Origin: Hericium rajendrae
Taxonomy: Eukaryota > Basidiomycota > Agaricomycetes > Russulales > Hericiaceae
NCBI GenBank assembly: GCA_033439255.1
Contig: CM065888.1
Coordinates: forward strand, 1,736,001-1,800,000
Reading direction: 5' to 3'
Length of the DNA: 64,000 bases
This document shows, in pieces, positions 27,170 through 46,950 of this stretch (its first letter is position 1; the number at the start of each line of letters is the position of its first letter). Under the pieces are notes generated by a model. That model searched no databases. It was given only the letters and a program-made list of their open reading frames with translations, and had not been told where the DNA came from. A program made the position numbers and the translations under genes.

Positions 27170-27951
27170 AGTGAAGAAGGAATGGTAATGTTCGTTAGCA
27201 CCATTCCGAAGGCAACGATTGAGATGAGACTGGCTGCTGTGTTTATAACCCAGTTCCCGAATGACCTGTATGTAAGATCGTATGTCGAGGCATCGTGATT
27301 GAATGCCACAAGCGTGTACAACACCTCATCATGGTGTCCACCTGTTTAGATGGTAAATATACCCATCGGAGTAAAGAGGATATCGGCTGTGTATGCGGAC
27401 GTGAGCTCATTTGCCGGACACCTTGTTTTAGATCCATAATGGAATAAACCCAAGAGAAGAGGAGAGATTATACTAATAAGTCCTTGGGTAGAGCATCCGG
27501 GGCGAGAGAAACATACTTCAAATTTCAATTTGGCGGTGGAAACTGACGACAAGCACCAACGGTCTCTGAGGTGGAAAGACCACAGATTGACGAGCGATCG
27601 CTACTTGCTCGAACGCAACTCGAACGCCTGGCCGATTCCTTGCAGCAATCGATTCATCGATTCACTTCCGTCTTCGCGCTCATCAACTTTGTTTTGGAGC
27701 CTTGCTTTCGACCACGGCGCACTCCATCCCTGAAAGGTACGGCGGATATCAGGCTGCTTCCCAGCAACTGGAGTCGCATACGAGTCTGAGAGCACCGCGG
27801 CTTGCTATACACATCTCACAGGACTCTGCCGTTCTCATCTAACTCTCCATAGCATCGGAAACTACTGCATGCCAGTTGAGTTCGCGATGCTTGTACGAGG
27901 CAGCTTCAAAAAAAAAACTACACCAGAAGGGATATTCGCAATGCATAGTAC

Positions 27952-29408
27952 CTAAGCAGATTGGCCTGGCTGCCATGGATCCTCCCATCCCATCCCCGGT
28001 ATCATGTCCATTATTTCAAACAGTATGTCTCCAGAAACCTGGCGACGTAATAGAACTAAGCGTTCTACGGTGCGTGACGCAGAAGGCCTTTCCTGAGGAC
28101 GAACATGAGTCATGTCCTTCAATAGTTCCAGAAAGCCTGGTATACGAGGTATAACGTCCTAGCACGTATGTATGCATGTTAGCATTGTGTCCGCACCAGT
28201 CAGAAAACGATTCCTAGACCACGCACGCGGAACCACCCATAAATAAATCTTCCCAGTTGATATATATCCGCAGCAAACGGACTATATCGGACACGGGACG
28301 TCTCTGGTGCTCTTTGCATCCGTCCTATAGACGACGGATCGACAAACCACTGCGAGGAAGGGACATCAGGTGGGCAGCGAAGCGAAAGCTCGAAGTCTAT
28401 CAATAGGTATCGGACAGGAAAAGTCGAACGGAATTCAGGGGTCGGGTCAACCGGCACGGGGACCTCATTAATCCAAAGAACTGTCTCCGGTATTCGGCCG
28501 TGATGGTTCATCAAGATATTCTCGTGGGAGATATCCTAGAAAGAAATGACTTAGCAATAGGCTTTGATTTGATTGAAGGCAAGGCTCACCAAGTGTGCGA
28601 TGCCATTTTGGTGCAAGAATAGCAGGGCCTTGGTAAGATCTTAGAATACCGGCAGACAGAAGCAGCAACGCTAACTCACACGTAAGGTCTGCTCAGTAAA
28701 CTCGAGGCACTCCCAAGCATTGCGAATAGGCAGTTCGTCGCAGGAGGAGCAGAACGGCATGACGATAAATGTCCAATCCCCTAGCTGAATATATTCAAGG
28801 ATTGGGACTGTTGCATTGAGCGGATTAGATTTGAGAGGCTCCGAATTCAAGAATTTGAGGATGGAAAGCTCTCCTTCGCCCTCGTTAACGTCTTTCGACA
28901 CGACCTTGATGACGACGTCTCTATTGGATCTGAAGAAGCATGTCAGTCTGTTTTCACGCAAGCAGCGTCAAAAGACGTGCTCATCTCGAGCACCGAATGC
29001 GACGGTAGACCACTGAATGAATGGAGTGTTGTTCACGAGCGCAATCAAGAATGTATACGCGCGCGCACCTGTACAAAGGAAGCCCGGAATCCGGCGCTGC
29101 GGTCTCCGAAAAGCTCGAAATTATCGAATGGTACGAGGGAGGGCGACGTGGGCCCGGATGGTTTAGGAGGAATTCCTAGGGTCTTATGTGGTCGATAGAG
29201 CTCATAGCCTCTAACTTTGAATAATGGGCGCAATGTTTCCCATGGACGAAACCAATTGGTATCAGACATGACGTCCAACGCTTTCCATGCCGCGATGGAG
29301 GCAGGCAGCTGTGACTGAAAGACGGCGAGCATCAACAGAGACACAAGAGAACAATCTGAATTTGCTCACCAGTACATCCGCTTCTATGACCCTAGGCTGT
29401 TCGTTCAT
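27952..29408 (-). CDS. Protein-kinase-like protein, tandem copy A
   Basis: The start ATG at 29408 opens a short exon (MNEQPRVIEADVL), followed by exons with SQLPASIAAWKALDVM, then NRDVVIKVVSK, then GIAHLDISHENILMNHHG, and a last exon ending at 27952. The kinase marks are the VIK lysine, the HLD catalytic loop with D and N, an unusual DFE in place of DFG (LLIDFELSLR), and APE in MQRAPETS. A hydrophobic helix with DIYQLGRFIYGWF follows. The residues needed for phosphotransfer are mostly present, so activity is possible although the N-lobe is unusual. It belongs to a basidiomycete kinase-like group I cannot name further; substrate unknown. The last exon (IPGFLELLKDMTHVRPQERP) was placed by alignment to copy B. 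Confidence 0.7.
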
Positions 29409-30000
29409 CGTGAGCGCGGTACGTACACCAGAAGTGGGCCTAGGTCCGTTCGCTCAGCTGCGATAAGACCTAAAGCGTATAGCAATTTCACAATAATACC
29501 AAATAACATAGGCGCCAACATAGTTCGACTGCCGTCAAAACACCATGCTCCACACCATCCTCACATTTCCTGGCAAACCTTCGCGTAACTGTGGAACAAA
29601 CCCAAGAGAAGCAGAGAGATGATACGAAATCCTGACTAGACCATCTGGGGACGAGAGAAACGCGCTTCAGGTATCCTGTCAACCTGGTGGTGGAAGCTGG
29701 CGATAAGGAACAATTGTCTGTGAGGTAGGAAGAGACCGGCGAGCGCTTGCTGCTTGTCTGAATGCCTGGGCGATTCCTTGCGTAGTCGATTCATCGATTC
29801 ACTTCGCGCGCTCACCATGTTTCTGATTTCGACCCGCCACTGCACGGCGCACTCCAGCCCCGAAAGGTACGGCGAACGCCCATTCTCGTTTAATCTCCTG
29901 TAGCATCGGCCAATATTGCCCACCACACGAGTCCCCGACGCTTGTACGACGCACTGCTTCAAAAAGCCTACACGAGAAAGGACATCCGCAATGCACAGCA

Positions 30001-31440
30001 CTACACAGATCGATCTTCCTGATGTGGATCCGGCCAATTATAACCCGATGGCTGCATGTCCATAGTCTGAAACAAAATGTCCCCGGGCACCTGTCTTCGC
30101 AGCGCTATGAAGCGTTCCATAGCGCGCGATGCAGATGGTCTATCCTGCGGACGAACGTTGGTCATGTCCTTCAATAGGTCCAGAAAACCCGGTATATCAG
30201 GCACGGCATCCTATCACACAAATAGGTACGTCAGCATAGTCATGCCGCACAAGCCTTTACATGGGGAGCGAAAGCACGCACATAGAACCATGCGTAGAGC
30301 AGCCTTCCAAGCTGATACACATCCGCAGCGAACGGATTATACCGTATCTCGGACGTCTCTGGCGCCCTCTGCACCCGTCCCACAGACGACGGCGCGATGC
30401 GCCACTGCGAGCGCTGCACACCGTCCGGGCAGCGAAGCGAAAGTTCAAAGTCTATGAACATATACCGGACCGGAAACGTCGAGCGGAACTCATGCGGCGG
30501 ATCCACCAACATGGGCGTATGGTCGATAGATACGATGCGCTGCGGCTGGCGGCCGTGGTGGTTTATGAGTATGTTCTCGTACGAAATGTCCTGCGTGCAG
30601 CGATTTAGTCACTTCCTCGACTTGACGGCAGTACGCACCAAGTGCGCGATGCCGCTGTCGTGCAGAACTGATAGACCCTGCATTGCCGATTTGAATGCCG
30701 TGCACACAGAGAAGAGCAAGTGACGCACGCGCAGAATCTGCTCCGTGAAATCAAGACACTCGTGCGCATTCAGGACCGGCACCTGTGCGCAGGGGTTGCA
30801 GTATGGCATGACGACGAACGACCAGTCCCCCAGCTGGAGCACGCCGAGGACCGGGACTGTCACAGTACCTTCGAAGCGCGCAGAGTTCAAGAACGTTAGG
30901 ATCGAGAGTTCGTTGTCGCCCTCGGCGCCTTTCGAGACCACTTTGATGATGACGTCTCGATTCGATCTGTGGGCGTGTGTCAGTGTCTTTTCACGCGAGC
31001 GGCATCAAAACACGTACGTATCTCGGGCGGGGAACACGACAGGAGAGAGCTGAATTCAAGCGCTCAGAGTACAAACCAAGGCCAGTAGTATCGGCACGCA
31101 CCGACAGAAAGCACGCCTGAAACCCGTCACCACGGTCCCCGAATAGCTCGAAGTTATCAAATGAGAGGGGGGACGGAGATGAAGCGTCATACGGGGTCGG
31201 CGAAATTCCCCTACCCCAAGGAGGCCGGTACAGTTCATAGCCTTCGCTTCGAAACCACGGGCGCAGGACTTCCCAGGGGCGGAACCAGTCCGGGTCGGTC
31301 ATGACGTCCAGCGCTTTCCACGCCGCTATGGAGGCGGGCAGCTGGGACTGAAAGACCACGAGGTTCAGCAGGTCCAGATATGACAATCTGAAACTGCTCA
31401 CCAGTAAGTCCGATTCTACGACACCAGGTTCTTCGTCCAT
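30001..31440 (-). CDS. Protein-kinase-like protein, tandem copy B
   Basis: This is the second unit of the tandem duplication. The start ATG at 31440 gives MDEEPGVVESDLL before an intron; later exons carry SQLPASIAAWKALDVMTD, NRDVIIKVVSK and VLQLGDWSFVVMPYCNPC. The catalytic loop DISYENILINHHG follows GIAHL across an intron, then FIDFELSLRCP (DFE for DFG), APE in VQRAPETSE, and YQLGRLLYAWF. The last exon reads IPGFLDLLKDMTNVRPQDRP and ends at the stop 30001-30003. All exons stay open, so the copy looks functional. It is intergenic to copy A by about 590 bases and lies about 500 bases from the end of the metacaspase gene, all on the minus strand. Function unknown. Confidence 0.7.
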
Positions 31441-31943
31441 CGTGAGCGGGTCACTTACAAGAGAAGAGGGCCCAGGGTCGTTCGCTCAGGGGGGACGAGA
31501 CGCAAGTGTATAGCAATTTCCCAATAATACCAAATAACATAGGCGCCGACATCGTTCGAGCGTCCTCAGAACACCGGGGTAAATGTGTATCGATGCTCTA
31601 CATCAGCCTCACCATTTCCAGCAGGCCGTCGCGTAGCTCAAGCATCGGAATAAGATAGATCTTTGTGAAAACATATAATGAGTTAGTCTCGAATAGAGGT
31701 CTGGTTCGGAGCGCGTACATATACGTGCCAAACACGCCCGTACACCACGAACCCGATGAATCACATCACAAATCTCCGACCCGTGTCCTGTCGAGCGTCG
31801 TGTTAACACAGCGTAGCGATGCCAGGCGTAGGAAGACGTACGATGCGGTGCGAGGCGGACAACTGTGCCTTTTGGTGGTACTGCTTCGTTACGTCCCTGC
31901 ATCCAGTCCATGAGTTCAGAACGTCTGCAGGACGGAAGATTGC

Positions 31944-34320
31944 TTACTTCAGTCCGCGCAATAGATCGCGGTAGGAGATCTTTGGATTCCGTTCTGAAGC
32001 ACGCAAAATGAGTTCCCGACGCAAGAAAATGGCCGCGTGAAAAGCGTACTCAAGACTTTCAAAAACGCCTGCATCACCATCACATATCAGCAACCTCCAC
32101 AGAACTAATTCCAGCAAAACGCACATAGCTCATCGCACCGACCGCCAACCCGCCCTCGCGCGTGTCAACCGTCGTCTGCGAGTCCTTGCACCCGCTCCAG
32201 CAGATCTACACAACGTACATCAGATACGGCGATGGAGGGGAAGGGAGGGGAGGACGGACCACTTCGGCGGGTGTCGCCTTGAGCTTCATGAAGCGGCGCG
32301 AGACGTTGCTGCCGCTGATCCTGCCGTTCGAATGGTACTACACCAACGCATGACGGTTAATGAGATGCGAGTCGTGGAGGGGGTGGGACGTGCCATGTAT
32401 GGGAGATCTGGATGGGATTAATCAGTTCGTGGTAGACTGTTGCAGATGCGCGGGGACGCACCGAGGACGGAGCCGGAGTGGCAGGACTGATGCGTTCTGT
32501 GATCAGTTATTGATCAACATTGTTAGGTGGGATCTTACATCAAAAACAGCCTGATCACGAATAGACTCAGCCAGCATGTATGAATGCGTGAACGGTGTGG
32601 GACTCACCGTCAATCGGCAACCAGGCGGCAAAGGCTTGATCTATGGATGTCGAATCAGCACGTCAGCGGGCTATGAATTATCATGATACGGACGACTGTA
32701 TCGTGTATGATCTTTGACGGCAGTGTCAGTACAATTGAATCAAGGTAGCCACGCGAGACGTACGTCATCGATGATTGTTCCGGCGCGGTTGTAGTCCAGC
32801 GGGAATATCACTGCGCGCCATCAACATCTGCGACCCAGAAACCAACACGCCACGTACTCTCGTCGTATCCGTCGACCTCGTCCCCATCGCGGTCCCTTGT
32901 CTGCCCGCCATGCCCCGAATCTACCCAGCCCCCTTCAGCAAAGCGCAGCAGCGATAAAAGGCGCGCACGCACAGTGCAAGAAAAGCGCGTCGTGCGCGCG
33001 CGCGCCGCGCACGAGCCAGCGCATCGCACCGAGTATGTTCGCCTTGGTCGGCAGATCGTGCGGATCGCGCGCGTCGTCCGTGAGCAGCACGATGCGTCTG
33101 GGATCATAATGGTAATAATCTACACATACCCACACCCATCAGCCGACCCTCCCCTTCCCGCCCAAGTAAAATGGCGCACGCACCGATGAGGAACTTGCGC
33201 ACGCCCTTCGCGTCATTGACACACCCGTGCAGCGCGTTCTTCTGCCCCGTGTAGTTGATCCCGATCTGCGCGCCGTCAGTCGCGTGTAAGAAAAGGGAGG
33301 AAGGGAGGGAGGGACGCACGCAGAGGGCCTTTTTCTTGCCCGTGCACTTTGAGAACATGAACTGCGGGTGCTGGAACGCCTCGAGCCCGCGCCCCCACTC
33401 GAGTCCGCGGATGTTCAGCTCCCGTGCCCTCTCCCTCTCGCGGTCGCGGTCGCGGTTCCGGTCCCTGTCTCTGCTCCGGCTGCGGCTCCTGCTCCGGCTG
33501 CGTCCACGCTCGTGCTCGCGGCGCGGCTCCTCGCGCGCGCGGCGCAGCCTCCTTGCCTGCGGATGCGGCGAGCGCGCACGGCCCTGCATCCCACGCTCGG
33601 GGTGCGCGCGCCCGTCAGGCGGGTCGGCATAGCGGATGCGGACCTGCTGCGCGCCCGGCGCAGGCGGGGGCGTGTGCCCGCGCTCGGACGGGGCTGCGTG
33701 CGCGTTGTTTTTGAGCTTCTTTCGGGAGAAGAAGGGGAGGCACGAGAGGAACGCACGCGAGACGACGATCTGCGGGATGGCGGGGGCCGAGCGGTGGCGC
33801 GAGTGGCGGGGTGCGGGCGCGGGCGTGGGGAGGTGGGAGGAGGAGTGTACGCGGGTGTGGCGATGGTCGTGGTCGTGGTGGTCGTGGGACGGCAGGACGG
33901 GGACGGCGGTGGCGGGCGCGGGGACGAGGTGTTCTTGTTGGGCGTGGTGGTGGCCGTGGCGCGAGCGGGAGTGGCGCGAGGAGTGCGAGTGGGCGGAGGG
34001 GGCTTGGGAGACGAGGTAGGCGCTGTCATGGGGTGCGTGAGCATGTGCGCGTGCCAGAGGGAGCGGGGAGTCGTACGGTCTGGAGTTGCTGCGATTGAGC
34101 GCATATGCTTGGCCGCTGCCACTGCAAAGAAGAGTCACGACAAGGTTCAGTCAAGGACGCGGCGAAGGGCGTACGGGGCAGACACGGGCACGCCATGGAG
34201 CGGGTATGGGCCGGGAGCGTCGCCCGGCGGTGGTATCTGGGGTTGTCTGGCGGCGTATCAGCGTACGTCCACGAAGGCGCGATCCAGCACGCACGGCATG
34301 CCTCCCGGAAATCTGCGCAT
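31944..34320 (-). CDS. Metacaspase (peptidase C14 family), intact copy
   Basis: A chain of short exons gives a complete metacaspase. The predicted start is ATG 34320 in a 23-base exon (MRRFPGGMP), then a Pro/Gly-rich start and a long His-, Ser- and Arg-rich prodomain with RS/RD/RE repeats. The p20 domain reads KKKALCIGINYTGQKNALHG, then YYHYDPRRIVLLTDDA, the catalytic histidine motif HYSGHGGQ, DGDEVDGYDEMIFPLDY, and the catalytic cysteine motif AVFDSCHSGSVLDLPY. The p10 part includes CWSGCKDSQT, EGGLAVGAMSY and a C-terminus near NPKISYRDLLRGLK. It should be a calcium-dependent Lys/Arg-specific cysteine protease linked to stress or cell death. Three consecutive exons are only about 33, 12 and 25 bases, and one intron after DLPYM appears to need a GC donor. 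The end may lie further on if GTAAGC at 31948 is a donor. Confidence 0.85.
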
Positions 34321-34825
34321 GTCGCGTTCAACAGCGCTCGATAGCACGACAGACGGTATATAACTCACGGAACTGAAGACGGGCCCGGGATAACGGGCTC
34401 AGGGAAACTGGGCCCCGTCGGGTATTCAGCGCCCTCCTCGTGATGAGTCGGATCGAACATTTGATGCGTTATCTCGTGAGTCTTGACGGTATATCACTTG
34501 TGTTCCGTTGGCCCTGCATCATCATGGAATTCATAAGACAGCGCGACGAATGGCCAGGCATCGACCACGCACCCATCAGCAAGGGCTGGTAGAATCAGAG
34601 ATGGGCGAGGAGAAGCAGTACAGTGGGAGACAGAGCAGAGAGAAGAATGGAATGGAGACGGAACGAGTGTTGCTAAACGCGATTGTTGCTCTCACTTTGT
34701 ACATTGACCGTTTAGCGCCCTGGGCTACTTTGTTAGACTTAGGCGCCCGGCGCCCATGACGTTATGCCATCACCACGCACGTAAACACGCTGACAGCCCA
34801 TCCTCGGCCGTGTCTGAGCAAGCCG
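32800..34825. repeat. Segmental duplication, left copy (metacaspase 5' half and upstream flank)
   Basis: The sequence from the middle of the metacaspase p20 domain through the prodomain and about 500 bases of upstream flank recurs at about 44870-46815 in the same orientation. The flank includes GGGCCCCGTCGGGTATTCAG near 34410 and again near 46410. Identity stops on the right near TCCTCGGCCGTGTCT (about 34800 and 46799). Confidence 0.9.
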
Positions 34826-35569
34826 AGTGACGTTTATTGGTCCCAATGGGTCCCTGCTCCTCGGTGCCTGGGCGCGCGTTTCCTGACTCTTTGCTTCCGG
34901 TTCTCGTTGCCTTCTCCTGCCCAATGGCATCTCGCGGTTGCGTTCGAACATACCGAGGGCAAAGGTGAGACTCTGTCTTATTTCTACTTTCTACACACAC
35001 GGGCCCCTTGGACGCCACATGTTGTCGCTTGTGAGCTGTTCAGTTCGCGCGTAGCTAGCTCGGTCTGACTGCTTTTTTGTAGGCTTTTTTCTGCCCAAGT
35101 CGACGCGATATCCTCAGTCACCGGCATCAACGATAACCCAAATATTCAGACGCGCTGATTTACCAAGGCGTCGGGGTTTCCACAGCAAATCATATGGCCC
35201 AGAATGCGCACCACGGCATTTCCACGCTGTCTGCAGCATTCTGGCGATACGCGCGGCCGCGAGTGAGTCTCCGGAAATGCGAATTCAATGCAAAGTCGGC
35301 GGAACACGATAAATGCGTTGGGGACGCGAAAACCGCCAACGGCGACTATCAACGCAGCCAGATGAGCACTGAGCATCTGCGGAAGAAACGACACGCGTAA
35401 GCAACGTCACCGCACGCGGAAAAATGGAGCAACTGACCGTGTACGACAGCCCGGGGTCGAACGAACACCGCAGGCGTCGTCGTCGCCATCCTGTCGCCCA
35501 AGTGCACGACTCGCAAGTCGTTCGTGGACGTCCAAAGACCGGGAACTGAGCGCCGCCTTCGCGCCGCCA
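34826..35569. other. Left border of the repeat locus, with an HMG-box-like fragment on the minus strand
   Basis: No complete gene is seen. On the minus strand between about 35385 and 35150 an exon-like frame begins after TTCTTCCGCAG and reads MLSAHLAALIVAVGGF, then RVPNAFIVFRRLCIEF. The PNAFIVFRR part resembles the start of an HMG box, but the later helices do not match convincingly and the frame ends soon after. I treat it as a weak resemblance only. Confidence 0.3.
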
Positions 35570-37062
35570 AACTTGACGATGACGCCCTGAGGGTTACGAG
35601 CAGTGCCGTCGACAAGGCGAATGGCGGACGCAGTACGGAAGGAAAAAGGCCATGACGACGATCTGTCGGAAGAGCACAGGTCAGTAATCTTGCCGCAAGT
35701 ATAGCAATGTTGAAACTCACCAAGCCAGGTCATCAAGCCCGCGAATGATGCGCGGAGTGCCCGGAAAGACCGTCCTTCTGCTGCGTCGTCGAACTTGACG
35801 ATGATGCTCTTGGCGGTCGCGCGAGCCTGACACCGAGGTTGCAACGTCTTCCGGCGAGTTGTCCGACGCGTACACCGCATTCTTGTCCACGCCGCGTAAC
35901 TTGACGATGACGCCCATAGCGTCTCGTGCGGGCGCACTGTCCGGAAGCTTCGAATGCCCCAGCGAAGTTCGACGTGAAGGCGATAGCAGTGATGGACTCG
36001 GCGGGAAACGGTGTCCGTAGCGACTTGCTGCAATCGTAAGGTCAGTCGCTGTCGGTGTTCGAGTGATAAACCACTGACCTCTAGAATGTAGCCACGAGAA
36101 CTCTACATCGCAGAACCGCACGCCAACGACCACGCCGACCCTGCGCTCCACCTCAGTGCCATAACTTGACGATGACGTCCGTGATCGCCATGCTAGTGCG
36201 ATCTCGACGGGCGAAAATTGCTTGTGGACAGTCCGGCGCGAAGACCACACCAGGCAGCCACGTTCTTGCCCGCGCCCCGTAACTTGACGATGACGTCCTC
36301 GATGTGTCGCGCGGGCATGTCCTCGGGACGGCGTCAAGTCAGCGGGGACGTGTCGCAGTGAGACGGGATTCGTCATGGATAGGATTTGCTACTCCAATCA
36401 TGTCAGTAGCTGTGGCGATCGGAAATTGAATTACTGACCTCGAAGATCCTGTCCAGGAGAGCTGGAGTTCGCAGAAACTAGCACAACAAGGCCACACCGA
36501 CTCTGCGCTCTACCGCACGCGCTGTAACTTGACGATGACGCCCGTTGTAGCCACGCAAGCGCGATGTCCACAAGCAGGCAGTCTGAACGAGGGATGCGAA
36601 GCAGCTGCGTCCTATGCTGCGCCATGTTACTTGACGATGACGCCCTTGGCGCATCACACAAGCCTCTCGGGAGGGTGCAGAGTTGGCGGGCGGGATTCAG
36701 ATCCGACGATGCCATCCCGCGCGAGATAACTTGACGATGACGTCCTCGGACATTCCGCGGACACCATATCTCCAAGTTGACAGTACAGAAAATGGGATGT
36801 CCGACTTGAAGGCAGCATCCGTTCTCCACCACGTAACTTGACGATGACGCCTGTGGTGTAGGAGTGTCGGGAGTGCAATAGCGACATGGGGGGATGGCGC
36901 GGGAGCAGCAGAAGCATAGACAGTACCAGCGCGGCGCCTTGCAACAGAGTAAGTGCCTACTCATACTCGAAAACAATGGGACTGACGTGGAGCGCGAAGC
37001 GCGTGTTTCCAGCTCGGGGACACGATCACCGGCGCCCACACGAGGTAACTTGACGATGACGC
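35570..37062 (-). repeat. Array A, left: about ten scattered copies of GTCATCGTCAAGT (minus-strand sense)
   Basis: On the plus strand the word reads ACTTGACGATGAC and starts near 35570, 35792, 35898, 36163, 36281, 36526, 36628, 36728, 36835 and 37047. Spacing is near 100-118 or roughly double that. The bases around each copy are GC-rich and only loosely alike. Read on the minus strand the word encodes VIVKL in one frame (GVIVKLRGVDK, SIIVKFDDAAEG, GVIVKFGGAK), but neighbouring copies fall in different frames. Intron-like blocks with inverted ends lie at about 35673-35722, 36040-36082 and 36398-36440. No known mobile element is recognised. Confidence 0.75.
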
Positions 37063-37084
37063 TTTTGCGTCCAATCGCAGCCAT

Positions 37085-39060
37085 GGATGTCCATTGCGAA
37101 AAGTTGGCTCATCAGCGGAAGTACACTGGCTTCGACAATCCCGTCTTCGAGCACGGTTTGCCGCTCGCCGCGGAGCCGAAATCCCAGGATTCAGGGCCAC
37201 AGAAACCGACCAATCTAGACATCAAGGTGAGCATACTTTCGACTCGGCTACTGAAGCGATAACATACGAATCGTAGCATGCAGAGCACGCGCCGGGCTGC
37301 GCCCGGCGCTCGCCCGTCGATGTCAGCGGAAGCTCGCTGACGTCGACCACGACTATTTCAGCCTTGGGCGTGTGTGTTGCCGCTCGCCGCGGGGGCCTCT
37401 GGGTCGGAATTTCGGGCACAGAAAACCTTGATTTCGGAACACCAGGTGAGCATCGACTTGACTCGGCTAAATCAGTGGTGACTCTCCTATTTTCCAGCAG
37501 CGAAGAGCACGCATTGGGCTGCGCCCAATGCTCGCGCCCGCACTCGCCATGTCAACGGAAGCCCGCCGACCCCTGCTTCGATGCCTTGATGTTTCAGCAC
37601 GTCTCCCGCTCCGCGCGGGCATCGAAAGGTTTCAGAATTGGATGCAAACGGTCTGCGATTTGGAATTACAGTAAGTGTGAAGTCGATACGGCTAATCTCG
37701 CAGTGTATACTCACTTTCTTTGCAGGCATCGCGCGGGGCTGCGCCCCGCACTTGCAGTCAATGTCAGCGGAGGTCCGCTGACATGGTCTTCGTAGACGTT
37801 GCCGTATAGACCAGTAGGCCGCTCGGCGCGGGCCACTGGACCTCGGAAGAAAAGGTGAGTTCTACCGTCACTCGGCTAATCTCATGATGAAATGCTCACC
37901 GTGGATGGTTCGGAACAGCTGGACGCGACGCAAAACGACGCCGGAAAGCACAAGAGATCGGCGGGCTTCGCCCGCCTCCCGCGCCCGCAATGTTGGCATC
38001 AACAGCTCGTCGACGCCAATTTCGATTACATAACCTAGGACCTGTAGGCCGCTCGGCACGGGCCACTGAATCCTGGAATTTATGGCACAAAAAAGAGCTT
38101 TCTGGGAGGACAGGTGAGTCTCGAGGTCTGTCGGCTAACTACGACTGAAAACGACTTACACGCAGATGCAATCGCACCACTGGTGCCTTCAGGGCTCGCG
38201 CAAAGCAAACGCAAGGGATCCGGCGGGCTCCGCCCGCCTCTCGCCAAGCGGAACGTGAGCGTCGGACTGACGCTCACTTCGTAGGCCTTGATCTATGGAC
38301 CCGTAGGCCGCTCGGCGCGGGCCACTGGATCCTGGAATTTTGACGATGAATAGTCGATTTCTGGGTGTCGAGGTGAGACTCAAACTGCCTCAGCTACTCA
38401 CAGCTGAAATTGACTTACGAGCAGACGAAATGGACCTTTAAAATTCGCGCAAAGCATGCGCGGGGATCGGCGGGCTCCGCCCGCCTCCCACCGAGCGGAA
38501 TGTGAGCGTCGACCCGACGCTCACTACGTAGGCTTTCTTCTATTGGTCAGTAGGCCGCTCGGCGCGGGCCTTTGGATCCTGTAATTTTGGTGCCAAAAAG
38601 TCGTTTTCTAGGAGTCCGAGTGAGTGCTCTTTTAGCTGGACTGATTGCAATGGAAAGTGACTTACGGGAACACAGACAGACAGTGCGCGCACTCCCAGAC
38701 CTCATCGCGTACCGTCTGAAGGCGTCCTCGGGATACACCCGACTCCACGTGCGAAACATTTGCAGAACACACGAATCACGTACCAGCGCGGAACGCAATG
38801 CAGCTACGCTTGCTGGGCTCCGCCCAGCAGCACCCAGGCAATCTCGACGCCAACAAGGTCTCCACATCGAAGATCTAGCATATGAGTGGGGTTGCTGCTC
38901 GGCGCGGGCCTCTGGACCTTGAAAAATAGACGAAAGTGGTTTCCTGTGGACACGGGTGAGTATTTAGAGATTTCAGCTAATTACACAGTAAAACGACATA
39001 CCAGGATGCAGAATGTGCGCCGGGAAAGAGTACATCGGGCTGCGCCCAAAATATGCTAAG
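37085..39060 (+). repeat. Array B: eight tandem exon-like units with compensated palindromes
   Basis: Units repeat at about 220-260 bases (one is 343). Each has an intron-like block (GTGAG ... CGGCTAAT-like branch site ... CAG), a GC palindrome with a three-base loop, often a second palindrome, and the block GCTCGGCGCGGGCC followed in most units by a GGATCCTGGAAT-like word. The main palindromes are centred near 37299, 37521, 37741, 37968, 38230, 38477, 38820 and 39041. Their arms differ between units yet stay complementary, for example GCGCCGGGC/GCCCGGCGC, GCATTGGGC/GCCCAATGC and TGCTGGGC/GCCCAGCA. Units two and three read as open exons (HAPGCARRSP, HALGCAQCSR), but others carry stops in that frame. 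Copy eight is decayed. Confidence 0.8.
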
Positions 39061-39564
39061 CGGCGCCTATGCGGGATATCCCCGTCGACTGACTATCGAT
39101 GCTGACGATGAGGACTTGTTCTCTTTTGGCATGCTCACCGCTGCCGTGGGCACTACCTCAGCGTTGACAGGTCTTGTTAGCGCTGACCTCGAAGAGGTGA
39201 CGGAGATTTGTCTTCGAAAACATCTAGTGAGTATTCAGTCAATTCCGTATAACTGTCGAGACGGTACGTACCCAACGAAATCTGAATGCATAGACCACAC
39301 CCCCAGCCAATCCCATGGCAGAAAAGCATGAATGACAAAGATATGTATGTGGTGGCATTTGCTGTCCATGCGCTGCTTCGATGCTCGTGCTCCAGTGGCA
39401 TCACACTGGACTATGATGTGCTTGACATCGTCACAGCTGCTCCGCAGAAATATGCCGTAGGACTGGAAAATAAAAATTCTTTAGTATCTCGTCTACAGGT
39501 GGGCGGGAATGTGAAGACTGATATAATACCAGAGATGTTCATGGCCAAAAGCATTGCCTCTTAA
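39053..39564 (+). CDS. Hypothetical protein segment at the 3' end of array B
   Basis: Two adjoining open exons can be joined: one reading MLSGAYAGYPRRLTID and LTGLVSADLEEVTEICLRKH up to a GTGAGT donor at about 39228, and one reading MNDKDMYVVAFAVHALLRC and LDYDVLDIVTAAPQKYAVG and ending before 39565. The composition looks like real protein with no low complexity. It directly follows the last array B unit, so it may be the 3' end of a tandem-exon gene or the remnant of a gene the array invaded. No family is recognised, the true start is unknown, and the frame join is not proven. Confidence 0.3.
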
Positions 39565-41150: not shown

Positions 41151-43103
41151 GGCGTCATCGTCAAGCTAAACAATGTGTGCGGGTGATCTCGTTCTCATTA
41201 CATGTCGCGCCTGCCCCGACGACGAGGCCCAAGGGCGCGTCATCGTCAAGTTCCCCGTGACACTCCTTCGCCTTCATGTTGCCCCGGGTCATGCATGCTA
41301 TGGCGCCAAGGCCTTCGTCGTCTACGTATATTCCGTGTGCTGGGATGGGCGTCATCGTCAAGTATGGGGCGGGCGTGCCGTGGTCGATGAGTACTCCGCG
41401 CAAACTCCACTGTCAATCTACTCACCTGTTCTGCAGACATCTGCACTTCTGCCAGTTGCACCGCATTCTCCCTCCCATACGGCCGTGTCTCGCCGCTACG
41501 AAGGGTGTCATCATCAAGTACGACGCCTGCGCGCCCACCTTCTCTGGATGCACACGTGCCGTATACACACCAGCGCCGAAGTCGTCGCCCTCTACGCGTG
41601 CCCTGCATGTCGGGTCGGGCGTCATCGTCAAGTACGGAGAGGGCGAGGGAAGGGATGTCTGACTGTCGGTGAGTCCTCTCCGCGAGGCATACTGCTGATG
41701 GACTCACCAATTGCACAGGACTGCACTCCCGCCGCGCGTCGCATACAGCCTCCTTTACCATGGATCCCCGCTGGCGCCGCGAGCGCCGAGGGCGTCATCA
41801 TCAAGTTCGACGCCTGCGCGCCCGCCTTCTCTCGACGCACTGGCGCCGAGGTCTTGGAACTCTACGCGTACCCTGCGCGTCGTGACGGGCATCATCATCA
41901 AGTACGGGGCGGGGGGATGGAGACTTTTTTTTATCGGTGAGCTGCTGAGGGCAAATACATTGTCGATGTACTCACCTGTCGCGCAGACTCCACGCCGTCC
42001 CACTCCGTGTCTTCACCATGGATCCCTGCCGGCGTCATCGTCAAGTTAGACGTGGTGCCTGTCGCTGTCTCGTTCTGTCGCGTCTGCCGTGCCATCACCG
42101 CTGCCATCGCGATTGTGCTGTGCGTGCTGGAAAACGTTGCGCTGTGCAGAGATGCGCCTTGGAGAATGAAGTTGAGGATACGCCCGTACCAACGCGCGTG
42201 CGTCTGGAGCCAGTTGGATGTAGGGGGCATCGCAAATGGGTCGGGGAGTGAGCTATGCACGGTGAGTACCCCGTCTTCTGCCTTCCGCGTGCAGAGACTT
42301 GCTCACCATATTTCAGAGCTCTGCGCCACTGCCTTGCCCCTCTTCCCATCTTCACACGAAGCGAAGAAACTATTCAGTACGCGCAGCTGTAGCGACGCAG
42401 TGAATGTGTCCGGAAGCGCATCGGACGACATTGAAACGGCGATTTTGCCGTATCTCTGCCGCAGGACGGGCGAGCGAAAGAGCCCCGAAACGCCTCGTAG
42501 CGGTGTTCCAAAGTGCACGTGGGATGTGTCTAATACCAGCGAGTCCGGGGACTGTCACTTGACGAGCCTCGTTACGCCAAGCCGCCTGTATCGCGAGTCG
42601 AAGCGGGCAGAGCAGCTAGACCGGGATGCGCCAAATCGCCTCGAAACGCCAAAGCGAAGCAGCCATTCGACGCGCCCAGTCACACTGAGACACAAAACAT
42701 GTCCCTCGCGACGTTGGATCGTGCTCGCACAGCTGTACAGCAGGATAAACGGGGCAATGAGCACGAACAAAAATGGCCGCACCTGGAGAAGGCGCGTGGC
42801 GCCCGTGAATGCATGTGCATTGTAGTCGGCGACATTTGGACATGCAGAGGCGGCCACTAGCAAGGGAGGATTCATGCAGATAACGAGCACAGGTGAGTTC
42901 TCATTGTCTTTGCGGATGGCGAGATATTGACCGTTGCCTTCGTCACCCGTTTTCATGCTCTGCTGCTCGTGTGGTCCCCATCGTTGATGGCCATATCACG
43001 ATCCGTTGCACGGAGTCGCGTCCGCGATCGTCGAAGATCGTCAGAGATAACAACGCGACAGCCGACGTCCTGCTCATGGCTCGCGAAGGGCGTCATCGTC
43101 AAG
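41151..43103 (+). repeat. Array A, right: about nine copies of GTCATCGTCAAGT in opposite orientation
   Basis: The word occurs on the plus strand near 41151, 41237, 41348, 41504, 41618, 41791, 41888 and 42031, with an outlier at 43088; some copies read ATCATCATCAAGT. Three copies (41348, 41504, 41618) are in one frame and encode GVIVKYGAG, GVIIKYDA and GVIVKYGEG, but others fall in other frames. Intron-like blocks with a GGTGAG start and a CTCACC near the end recur at about 41386, 41668, 41936 and 42259, so each exon-like block tends to hold two copies. The array is inverted relative to the left one, with the spacer and array B between them. Confidence 0.75.
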
Positions 43104-43862
43104 TATGACGCAAGGGCGCCATGTCTGGTGCGAGTGCAGCAGAGGCGCAGCGCGTCCGCCCTAAGTTGCCTGTGTGATCCCGCGAACTGCGTTGAGGATC
43201 GGCTGCCCGCGAAGACCTTGAGATACGTGCTCTTGGTGCACTGGGATGACATCAACAAAATGACCATGCTGCATGGGAAATGGGGCATGCCGCAGAGAAG
43301 TTGTCGCCGTTCCCCTGAGCTAGAAAGGGCCGTATTGCCGGATTCTTGTTCCGGGGTCGGCGAGTTCGAGCGCGCTCAAACATCTTGCGGCACCGTAGAG
43401 AATGCAGCATGGGTCCCGCGCCATGTCAGCGAGTCGGGAGACATGTCGTTTGGCGCGTTCTGCTGTGCCGAAACGGCTGGATCGCGAGCTGAAGGGGACG
43501 GGGTGCTCGGAGCCGGATGCGCCAGATCACGTCGGAACGCCGAAGCGATTACAGCCTTGGGTGCACTGAGATGCCGTGAGTCGGAGAATGGGGCTCTCGA
43601 TGTGTTGGATTGCGCCCAAGAGGCTGCTTTGCACGATCTCAACTCCGGGGCGGGCGAGCTGGGGACCGCTCAAATGTCTCGCGGCATTGTAATAGAGGTA
43701 GCGGGGGTTGCGCCCCATCACAGCGAGCTGCGCGAGTATTGCTCAGCCCAGCAGGTCACACCGAACCAGCCGTATTACGAGGAGAAGGGCGCGGGTCGCT
43801 CAGATCGGGATGCGCGAGATTACCTCGGATCGCCTCGGAGACGACAGCATCGCGTGCGCTAG
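42430..43862 (+). repeat. Array C: three diverged units of about 300 bases, in a long open frame
   Basis: Three related units begin near 42439, 43329 and 43621. They share words such as TGTCGCG/TCTCGCGGCA, CGGGATGCGC and a CTCCGGGGCGGGCGAG-like block. The translations align loosely: LPYLCRRTGERKSPET, LPDSCSGVGEFERAQT and LHDLNSGAGELGTAQM. A 311-codon open frame spans 42927-43862 and contains the last two units plus one array A word. The first unit lies in another open frame at 42007-42825. No family is recognised. The open frames may reflect high GC rather than selection. Confidence 0.5.
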
Positions 43863-44330
43863 AACACTGCGATTCTGGCAATGTGTTGCTCTGGACGTCG
43901 GTTGCGCCAGAGCTGCTGCATCGCGATGTGAACGGGGGGAGGTCAGCGGGAGTGAGAAAGGCGGCCGCACCTGGGTTCAAAAAAATGTGCTGCGCCTCAA
44001 GACTGCTCGATATCAGTCGTCGCGACTTCTAGATTATGCACATTCAATGCCATATTTAGATAACAGGAGAATGGGGATGTGTCGCGAGGAATGGTGGGCA
44101 TTTCGGTGTCGAGGTGAGAGACGCGTCAATACCAAGTTGACGCGCGACGGCTGACTTCCCTGCTTTTCGTTTCACACGACTAACAACGAAGGCTTTACAG
44201 TTAGCATGGAGTTCCTACACCTGGAGCTGTGTCATATCACAAGGAAAACGGGAAAAGCATTTCATCAATCAAATCTCGTATATTGCAAGTAAGCACATCC
44301 ATTAATTTTGTCCTACAGTCTCGATCGTGC

Positions 44331-44860: not shown

Positions 44861-44869
44861 AGTCAACAC

Positions 44870-46323
44870 GCCACTTATTCTTGTTGTACCCATCCACCTC
44901 GTCCCCGTCGCGGTCCCTTGTCTGCCCGCCGTGCCCTCAGCAAAGCGCAGCAGCAGCAATAAAGAGTCACACGCACAGTGCAGAAAAAGCGCGTCGTGCG
45001 CGCGCGCACCGCGCACGAGCCAGCGCATCGCGCCGAGGATATTCGCCTTGGTCGGCAGATCGTGCGGATCGCGCGCGTCATCCGTGAGCAGCACGATGCG
45101 TCTGGGATCATAATGGTAATAGTCTACACCCACACCCACACCCACACGCATCAGCCCACCCACCCTTCCCGCCCGCGGAAACCGGCGCACGCACCGATGA
45201 GGAACTTGCGCACGCCCTTCGCGTCGTTGACGCACCCGTGCAGCGCGTTCTTCTGCCCCGTGTAGTTGATCCCAATCTGCGCGCCGTCAGTCGCGTGTAA
45301 GGAAAGGGAGGGAGGGAGGGAGGGAGGGACGCACGCAGAGTGCCTTTTTCTTGCCCGTGCACTTCGAGAACATGAACTGCGGGTGCTGGAACGCCTCGAG
45401 CCCGCGCCCCCACTCGAGCCCGCGGATGTTCAGCTCCCGTGCCCTCTCCCTCTCGCGGTCGCGGTCGCGGTTCCGGTCCCTGTCTCTGCTCCGGCTGCGG
45501 CTCCTGCTCCTGTTCCGTCCACGCTCGTGCTCGCGGCGCGGCTCCTCGCGCGCGCGACGGAGCCTCCTTGCCTGCGGATGCGGCGAGCGCGCGCGGCCCT
45601 GCATCCCGCGCTCGGGGTGCGCGCGGCCGTCGGGCGGGTCCGCGTAGCGGATGCGGACCTGCTGCGCGCCCGGGGCGGGCGGGGGCGTGTGCCCGCGCTC
45701 GGACGGGGCTGCGAGCGCGTTGGTTTTGAGCTTCTTTCGGGAGAAGAAGGGGAGGCACGAGAGGAACGCACGCGAGACGACGATCTGCGGAATGGCGGGG
45801 GCCGAGCGGTGGCGCGAGTGGCGCGGTGCGGGCGCGGGCGCGGGGAGGTGGGAGGAGGAGTGCACGCGGGCGTGGCGGTGGTCGTGGGAGGACGGCAGGA
45901 CGGGGACGGCGGTGGCGGGCGCGGGGGCGAGGTGTTCTTGCTGGGCGTGATGGTGGCCGTGCCGTGAGCGGGAGTGGCGCGAGGAGTGCGAGTGGGCGGA
46001 GGGGGCTTGGGAGACGAGGTAGGCGCTGTCATGGGGTGCGTGAGCATGGGGGCCTGCCAGAGAGTGCGGGGAGTCGTACGGTCTGGAGTTGCTGCGGTTG
46101 AGCGCGTATGCTTGGCCGCTGCCACTGCAAAAAATAGTCACAACGCGTTTCGATCAACGATGCAGCAAAGAACCTACGGGGCAGACACGGGCACGCCATG
46201 GAGCGGGTATGGGCCGGGAGCGTCGCCCGGCGGTGGTATCTGAGGTTGTCTAGCGGCATGTCAGCGCACGTCCAAGAAGACATGATACAGCACGCACGGC
46301 ATGCCTCCGGGAAATCTGTGCAT
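44870..46323 (-). pseudogene. Truncated metacaspase copy
   Basis: This is the right copy of the segmental duplication. The start (ATG 46323, MHRFPGGMP), prodomain and first p20 exons are intact and close to the 34.3 kb gene, through KNALHGCVNDAKGVRKFLI and YYHYDPRRIVLLTDDA. At the catalytic histidine a short deletion has removed the intron acceptor and the Tyr-Ser part of HYSGHG; only GHGGQ remains near 44940. The next donor is also changed (GAGAGTACGT to AATAAGTGG), and homology ends at about 44870. The catalytic cysteine exons and the whole p10 part are missing. It cannot make an active protease; a truncated transcript could still exist because the upstream flank is duplicated too. Confidence 0.85.
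45125..45329. repeat. Two microsatellites in metacaspase introns
   Basis: A CCCACA-type run lies at about 45125-45150 and a GGGA-type run at about 45306-45329. Both lie in introns of the truncated metacaspase copy and are longer than in the intact copy, where the same positions read as shorter, interrupted runs (near 33127 and 33295). Confidence 0.8.
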
Positions 46324-46950
46324 GTCGCGTTCAACAGCGCTCGAGAACACACAAGGCCGTATATAACTCACGGAACTGAAGACGGGCCCGGGATAACAGG
46401 CTCAGGAAAACTGGGCCCCGTCGGGTATTCAGCGCCCTCTTCGTGATGAGTCGGATCGAACATATGTGTTATCTCGTGAGTCTTGACGGTATATCAGTGT
46501 GTTCAGTGGCCCTGTATCATCATGGAGTTCATAAGACAGCGCGATGAATCGGCAGGCGTGGAACACGCACCCGTCAGCGAGGGCCGGCACAATCAGAGAT
46601 GGGCGAGGAAAAGCAGTACAGGGAGAGATAGAGCAGAGAGAGGGATGGAATGGAGACGGAACGAGTGTTGCTAAACGCGATTGTTGCTCTCACTTTGTAC
46701 ATTGACTGTTTAGCGCCCTTGGCTACTTTGTTTGCCTTAGACGCCGGCGCCCATGACGTTTGCCATCAGCACACACGTAAACACGCTGACAGCCCATCCT
46801 CGGCCGTGTCTTCGTGCTCTTCGAAGTTCGAAGCAGAGTGTTACTATTAGGCCTGGCGCGGTGCCTCCATACGATATCCTTGCGAAACATTATTCCTGTA
46901 CGTGCATTGCTCAAGTGTGGCTCCCCCTCCTCTGACCCTTCGCCTACAGC

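Follow-up and report, generated by a model that had tools for sequence, protein, structure and literature searches.

Matched arm changes in tandem palindromes of a dispersed nuclear element of Hericium rajendrae, with G.U and A.C mismatches on an equal footing

RNA structure is conventionally proven by compensatory change at positions that pair. In the A-repeat of XIST, a tandem-repeat long noncoding RNA, a G+C-rich hairpin module is repeated several times in succession. A folded RNA tolerates G.U pairs and rejects A.C pairs, whereas a palindrome kept on both strands of the DNA treats the two alike. Hairpins also occur in mobile DNA: Helitrons are recognised by a 5′ TC, a 3′ CTRR and a hairpin near the 3′ end. 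Finally, template switching makes and keeps hairpins, changing both arms in one step and rebuilding perfect stems, as set out in the available text of PMC8794818.

We analysed a window of 64,000 nucleotides from Hericium rajendrae (the whole stretch C11:1736001-1800000, within a 46.8-Mb assembly of 19 contigs). The array considered here lies at about 1.77 Mb on a contig of 2.27 Mb, i.e. on a nuclear contig, and the original prediction was right to set it apart by location from the double-hairpin elements of fungal mitochondria. Between 37085 and 39060 we counted 10 separate palindromes (arms ≥ 7 bases, loops of 3–5 bases), while in 300 dinucleotide shuffles of this segment the mean was 0.39 and the maximum 3, and 30 other 1976-bp tiles of the window held 0–2 each. 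The cores of the first hairpin (hairpin 1) are positioned at 37294, 37516, 37736, 37963, 38225, 38472, 38815 and 39037, giving successive spacings of 222, 220, 227, 262, 247, 343 and 222.

On the window, a covariance model recovered seven clear units at E ≤ 7e-12 and two worn end units at E of about 0.05, all on the + strand. These are a worn unit at the 5′ end of the array (37078–37184, E 0.047), unit 1, as its three-hairpin core (37287–37406, E 2e-17), unit 2 (37509–37630, 3e-13), unit 3 (37729–37843, 6e-26), unit 4 (37956–38073, 2e-21), unit 5 (38218–38332, 1e-28), unit 6 (38465–38579, 3e-25), unit 7 (38808–38919, 7e-12) and a worn unit at the 3′ end (39030–39158, E 0.048). Eight units of about 220–260 bases had been predicted; the array itself and most of the spacings agree with this, while the count and two of the spacings (262 and 343) do not.

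The anatomy of a unit was read from an alignment of 56 units, which come from the window and 17 other genomic stretches. Each unit carries three short-loop hairpins, followed by the 5′ splice-site consensus CAG/GTRAGT and a branch-like CTAAT. The commonest form of hairpin 1 is NNNGGGC-TNC-GCCCNNN with 7 pairs, and its loops in the window are TGC, TTC and TCC, as had been described. Hairpin 2 has a stem of about 6–14 pairs, the sequence of which varies between units. The inner part of hairpin 3 is GGC-GCGG-GCC, switching to GCC-GCGG-GGC; around it some of the units have an outer stem, CCAGT/ACTGG, which with 63% of its cells paired is the weakest of the helices. Downstream of hairpin 3, CAG/GTRAGT, CTCGGCTAAT and ACTYAC follow at nearly fixed distances. 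Among the individual palindromes reported earlier, those at 38255–38277 and 38502–38524 are as described, the latter being readable also as 10 bp with a 3-base loop, while the one at 37761–37784 has arms of 10 and a loop of 4 instead of perfect arms of 11.

Outside the helices, identity between units is 40–72% (five of the seven clear window units compared). The units are neither the homogenised, near-identical copies of an ordinary satellite nor near-identical copies that differ by decay, the case which the original prediction had named as adverse to itself.

Next, we counted pairing within the arms. The search pattern gave 103 hits (101 distinct), of which five were dropped before counting (one cut off, one from the stretch L028 and three in the window outside the array); 96 units remained, a few of which look like false hits. 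The 56 units of the alignment are a visual selection from these, made for regular spacing and a distinct hairpin 1, and this selection raises their paired fraction. Pairs 5 and 6 of hairpin 1 are not fixed by the search pattern, and they were counted over all 96 units. Pair 5 is formed in 92 units against a shuffled-partner mean of 57.4 (maximum 65), and pair 6 in 91 units against a mean of 41.9 (maximum 56). Pair 8 is formed in 29 of the 96 units (shuffle mean 26.3), the arms usually ending at pair 7. On a tree of 112 columns we counted at least seven changes from one Watson–Crick pair to another at each of pairs 5 and 6, numbers that are approximate and possibly inflated since units may recombine; other, non-Watson–Crick cells at these two pairs amounted to one and zero of 56, respectively. 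For the complete 27-pair structure in the 56 units, the paired cells, the double-changed cells and the covariation score all exceeded every one of 500 shuffles, and also every slid version of the structure. The proposed covariation of both arms was thus borne out, and the compensatory change at conserved base pairs that is expected of a structured RNA is present. The orientation of the hairpin-1 loop is constant, reading TNC in 86 of the 96 units.

We then compared the mismatches within the arms, using a scoring that favours neither G.U nor A.C and including hairpin 2 for those 70 of the 96 units in which its arm was good. We observed 1301 Watson–Crick pairs, 26 G.U, 38 A.C and 71 others; in all helices of the 56-unit alignment there were 68 G.U and 76 A.C. 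The excess of G.U over A.C that a structured RNA of the + strand would display was found in neither count. As a control from the same genome, we used the acceptor and T stems of 21 tRNA genes, 20 of them distinct, made up of 20 of the 58 genomic tRNA matches and the one in the window. These stems gave 215 Watson–Crick pairs, 20 G.U, 1 A.C and 4 others; the genes score highly under a model with its own preference for G.U over A.C. The array arms (26 G.U, 38 A.C) differed from the tRNA stems (20 and 1) with a Fisher p of 7e-6. In most copies, therefore, the pairing of the arms is not maintained as pairing in a plus-strand RNA. Because G.U does not exceed A.C in the arms, unlike in the tRNA stems, the pairing is probably kept on the DNA, by template-switch renewal or by selection for a cruciform and not by selection for a folded transcript. 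In hairpin 2 alone, A.C leads G.U by 27 to 13, so a minus-strand RNA is less firmly excluded than a plus-strand RNA. Selection on, or renewal of, a hairpin or cruciform had been suggested for this array; the covariation agrees with this and the strand symmetry favours the DNA form, while selection and renewal are not separated by these counts. The DNA part of that interpretation is supported and its RNA alternative is weakened.

The modules also contain splice-like signals. GTRAG was found 3′ of hairpin 3 in 79 of the 96 units (shuffle mean 10.9), at a distance of 49 bases in 43 of the 79 and of 50 bases in 15. The bases before GTRAGT are C in 49, A in 38 and G in 59 of 74 cases, and no such bases stand on the mirror side. 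As CAG precedes GTRAGT on the + side only, we placed the 5′ splice-site reading on the + strand and rejected minus-strand introns. Intron-like stretches of the form GTGAG ... YAG, putatively spliced, lie between the units on the + strand at 37446–37497, 37855–37918, 38114–38165, 38373–38424, 38620–38675 and 38956–39004. The 3′ side is weaker: 17 units out of 65 lack any YAG at up to 24 bases from the branch-like ACTYAC. We also considered GTRAGT and ACTYAC as an extra stem and rejected it, since its variable position (G-U 27, G-C 23, A-U 7, A-C 6 and two others; n = 65) lacks covariation; the two motifs were therefore read as splice signals.

Upstream, a promoter-like block and a first exon-like stretch (GACGTTTATTGGTCC ... 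TTCGAACATACCGAGGGCAAAG) occupy 34828–34964 on the + strand, where the homology to other copies begins, and an intron-like stretch, GTGAGA ... CTGAC ... TTTTTTGTAG, predicted to be spliced, follows at 34965–35082 on the same strand. Upstream of the array and in its orientation, a 20-mer from exon 1 (at most one edit) was recovered from the window, from both C4 copies and from L033, L023 and L026, and L031 has a less good match. No 5′ block could be recognised in L015–L021, L024, L025, L027, L028, L032 and four joined C8 stretches, the block thus being documented for part of the copies. Taken as sequence signals, these features suggest additional transcription and splicing of the + strand, but arm pairing does not resemble a feature under selection in such a transcript.

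The array is part of something larger, with similar DNA in other regions of the genome. Its first description was incomplete in this respect: a longer recurring stretch without coding signal (from about 34828), the third hairpin, the splice-like motifs of the + strand and the copies elsewhere in the genome all lie beyond it. When a 552-bp stretch of the array was searched against the 46.8-Mb genome, 64 matches were obtained; grouped by hand, with matches less than 50 kb apart joined, they fall into 21 regions on 11 contigs. A 16-mer of hairpin 3 (at most one mismatch) occurs 153 times, against 8 for its reversed control, and the 5′ end of the element is matched 11 times, at 9 places. In the window and in the C4 and C9 copies the homology begins abruptly at GACGTTTATTGG, and the sequence beyond this boundary is unrelated among the three contexts: a metacaspase-like piece in the window, a squalene epoxidase on C4 and a sub-cut-off DUF1275 match on C9. 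The neighbours at further loci include AA9, a DEAD helicase and a PAH repeat protein. Counting these six and a glycosyltransferase 8 as the named neighbours, six of the seven stand head-to-head with the array, the glycosyltransferase 8 at L021 being the exception.

At C1:4.93–4.99M, C4:0.52M, C4:3.15–3.19M and C8:2.54M, the element and a neighbouring gene (squalene epoxidase in the C4 series) are repeated together head-to-tail at intervals of 12.3–13.0 kb. At C4:3.15–3.19M, C8:0.84M, C8:2.35M and C11:0.90M, arrays on the + strand are succeeded, after about 4 kb, by hairpin-3 motifs in the opposite (−) orientation, and a transcript spanning both opposed arrays could form a long double-stranded RNA.

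In the window the element is flanked exactly by a direct repeat of about 1.97 kb, 90% identical between its left (32843–34815) and right (44864–46811) copies, both on the − strand; the left copy stops a dozen bases before the 5′ block. Both copies hold the first exons only of a metacaspase-like gene, which matches Pfam Peptidase_C14 at E 0.15, below the cut-off. A partnership of the element with metacaspases was rejected, since the eight PF00656 matches of the genome lie elsewhere and other copies stand beside other genes. Farther upstream, 27440–31575 is a diverged tandem duplication of about 2 kb, 68–71% identical.

Two clusters of a further motif lie within the element, namely ten copies of ACTTGACGATGACG (at most two mismatches) at 35569–37061 on the + strand and seven at 41153–43104 on the opposite (−) strand. 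The 16-mer ACTTGACGATGACGYC, which contains TGACG twice, occurs exactly 270 times genome-wide against 0 for its reversed control; it clusters in both orientations at these elements and also elsewhere, with three copies in L035, which matches no other compared locus. Stems around ACTTGACGATGACG were rejected (mean longest stem 3.57 versus 3.69 in mispaired flanks, 124 sites), as was a coding repeat: the motif reads GVIVK in some frames of one strand, the frame shifting between copies and no codon signal being present. At 42357–44173 on the + strand lies another set of diverged repeats, which includes a GGCGATATCGCC-like palindrome and has a repeat length of about 292 bp in the C4 copy.

Comparison of the window with the C4 copies showed no three-base codon periodicity in ten aligned pieces, and 30 of 189 gaps were multiples of three. 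No Pfam domain reached the cut-off in the ten stretches tested between 33 and 45 kb, and Rfam gave no match over the array, either at the gathering cut-off or at E up to 10. The exact 21-mer of hairpin 3 had 0 occurrences in a viral and 0 in a prokaryote collection, which says little for a eukaryotic sequence. A search of open-licence papers found no description of such an element, and the available text of two papers on fungal long noncoding RNAs describes no hairpin or tandem-repeat element of this kind.

How might these observations be explained otherwise? Chance palindromes, or the plain decay of a homogeneous satellite, can practically be dismissed: a G+C-rich sequence makes short palindromes somewhat likelier, but this is contradicted by the excess over the shuffles (10 versus a mean of 0.39) and by the covariation across 96 units. 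It is highly improbable that the units are exons, or decayed remains, of a repeat-rich protein gene whose palindromes arose through codon choice. The region does have open stretches of 150–320 codons; however, successive units read the hairpin in different frames, the comparison with the C4 copies lacks both three-base periodicity and a surplus of gaps in threes, and none of the ten stretches gave a Pfam match above the cut-off. A spliced, modular family of long noncoding RNAs, in which selection for the folded transcript keeps the hairpins and each module serves as a binding platform as in other tandem-repeat noncoding RNAs, appears unlikely to us, although much is consistent with it: the covariation beyond all shuffled and slid versions, the promoter-like block with its first-intron signals, the nearly fixed distance of CAG/GTRAGT and the constant loop orientation of hairpin 1. 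Against it stand the lack of a G.U surplus where the tRNA stems have one, the units without a nearby YAG and the absence of an Rfam match over the array.

The element might also be a non-autonomous mobile element, either Helitron-like or a large terminal-repeat transposon, that carries or abuts pieces of genes and whose palindromes and ACTTGACGATGACG motifs are sites for a recombinase or replication protein. Its dispersal over 21 regions, the sharp 5′ boundary with unrelated sequence beyond it in three contexts, the opposite orientation of the ACTTGACGATGACG clusters on the two sides, the head-to-tail series, the truncated metacaspase-like pieces that flank it in the window and the 67 Helitron_like_N matches in the genome would all fit. 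We nevertheless consider it rather improbable, as the left end GACGTTTATTGG lacks the initial TC of Helitrons, no right end is common with C4, the 5′ block is on one side only where found, the inverted motif clusters come with no terminal inverted repeat, the ten stretches tested around the array contain no transposase or Rep domain, and the ACTTGACGATGACG motif is present in the unrelated L035 too. Twelve of the 67 Helitron_like_N matches lie in open frames of about 2000 codons, and apparently intact Helitrons are abundant in this genome; a link between these matches and the hairpin-array family was looked for and not established. A mobile origin is compatible with pairing kept at the DNA level as well as with selection on RNA.

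Our preferred, still tentative reading (probability about 0.45) is that the element is one copy of a dispersed, diverged, long non-coding family, about 10 kb here and nuclear, the arms of which are kept complementary by some mechanism at the level of the DNA hairpin. What we observed directly are the modules, their family, the covariation, the strand-symmetric arm mismatches and, in the comparison with the C4 copies, an absence of coding signal. A copy with a recognised 5′ end would open with the promoter-like block and contain a tandem array of modules of about 220–260 bp, each module comprising three short-loop palindromes and then an intron-like stretch. The likeliest process would be template switching at the replication fork, by which one arm may be copied onto the other so that both sides change in one step. 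Mismatched intermediates at pairs 5 and 6 of hairpin 1 are almost absent, in a comparison within one genome where the number and direction of steps are not visible. The same explanation could take the form of selection for a cruciform recognised by a protein, for which the conserved cores of hairpins 1 and 3 speak. The constant loop orientation and the arms stopping at pair 7 likewise suggest that the core of hairpin 1 is also recognised by something.

Several points weigh against keeping the arms paired on the DNA. Pure mutational renewal would be expected to invert loops sometimes and to let stem length drift, and neither pattern is seen in hairpin 1. The CAG/GTRAGT on one strand points to RNA. 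Many copies may also be dead and decaying, and decay too would level G.U and A.C. In its boldest form, which we regard as doubtful, our reading would describe a nuclear gene-like element of repeated, spliced modules, made of DNA palindromes that rewrite their own arms, the RNA-like covariation being made and kept on DNA.

The family combines many matched changes with a lack of the G.U asymmetry seen in tRNA stems of the same genome. If the pairing is indeed kept on the DNA, the family would be a natural setting in which to test how palindromes of a nuclear genome are renewed by template switching, and a check of G.U against A.C for strand symmetry would be advisable before covariation is taken as RNA function. 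If spliced palindromes that rewrite themselves are the correct description, they would form a new class of eukaryotic noncoding element, and covariation alone would be no proof of RNA structure. If a folding transcript exists instead, it would belong to an undescribed family of spliced, modular noncoding RNAs.

In comparison with known systems, the dispersal, the lack of coding signal, the gene pieces alongside, the head-to-tail copies and the motifs clustered near the sides resemble non-autonomous Helitrons and DNA transposons with subterminal repeats; unlike in these, no TC/CTRR ends, terminal inverted repeat or common right end were found. Like the A-repeat of XIST, the array has consecutive copies of a G+C-rich hairpin module, but it has splice-like units, many dispersed copies and no G.U surplus, and it is known as DNA sequence. 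Matched arm changes, perfect stems and short loops are shared with the template-switch (quasi-palindrome) mutations in RNA genes, as far as the available text of PMC8794818 describes them; there the strongest sign is loop inversion, of which none was seen in hairpin 1, and the modules here are tandem, noncoding and devoid of the RNA-like G.U asymmetry. With the double-hairpin and palindromic repeats of fungal mitochondria, compared by the available descriptions, the array shares short, G+C-rich palindromes in multiple copies, but it differs from them in being nuclear, with its palindromes fixed in tandem modules of 220–260 bp that bear splice-like motifs and lie inside long elements.
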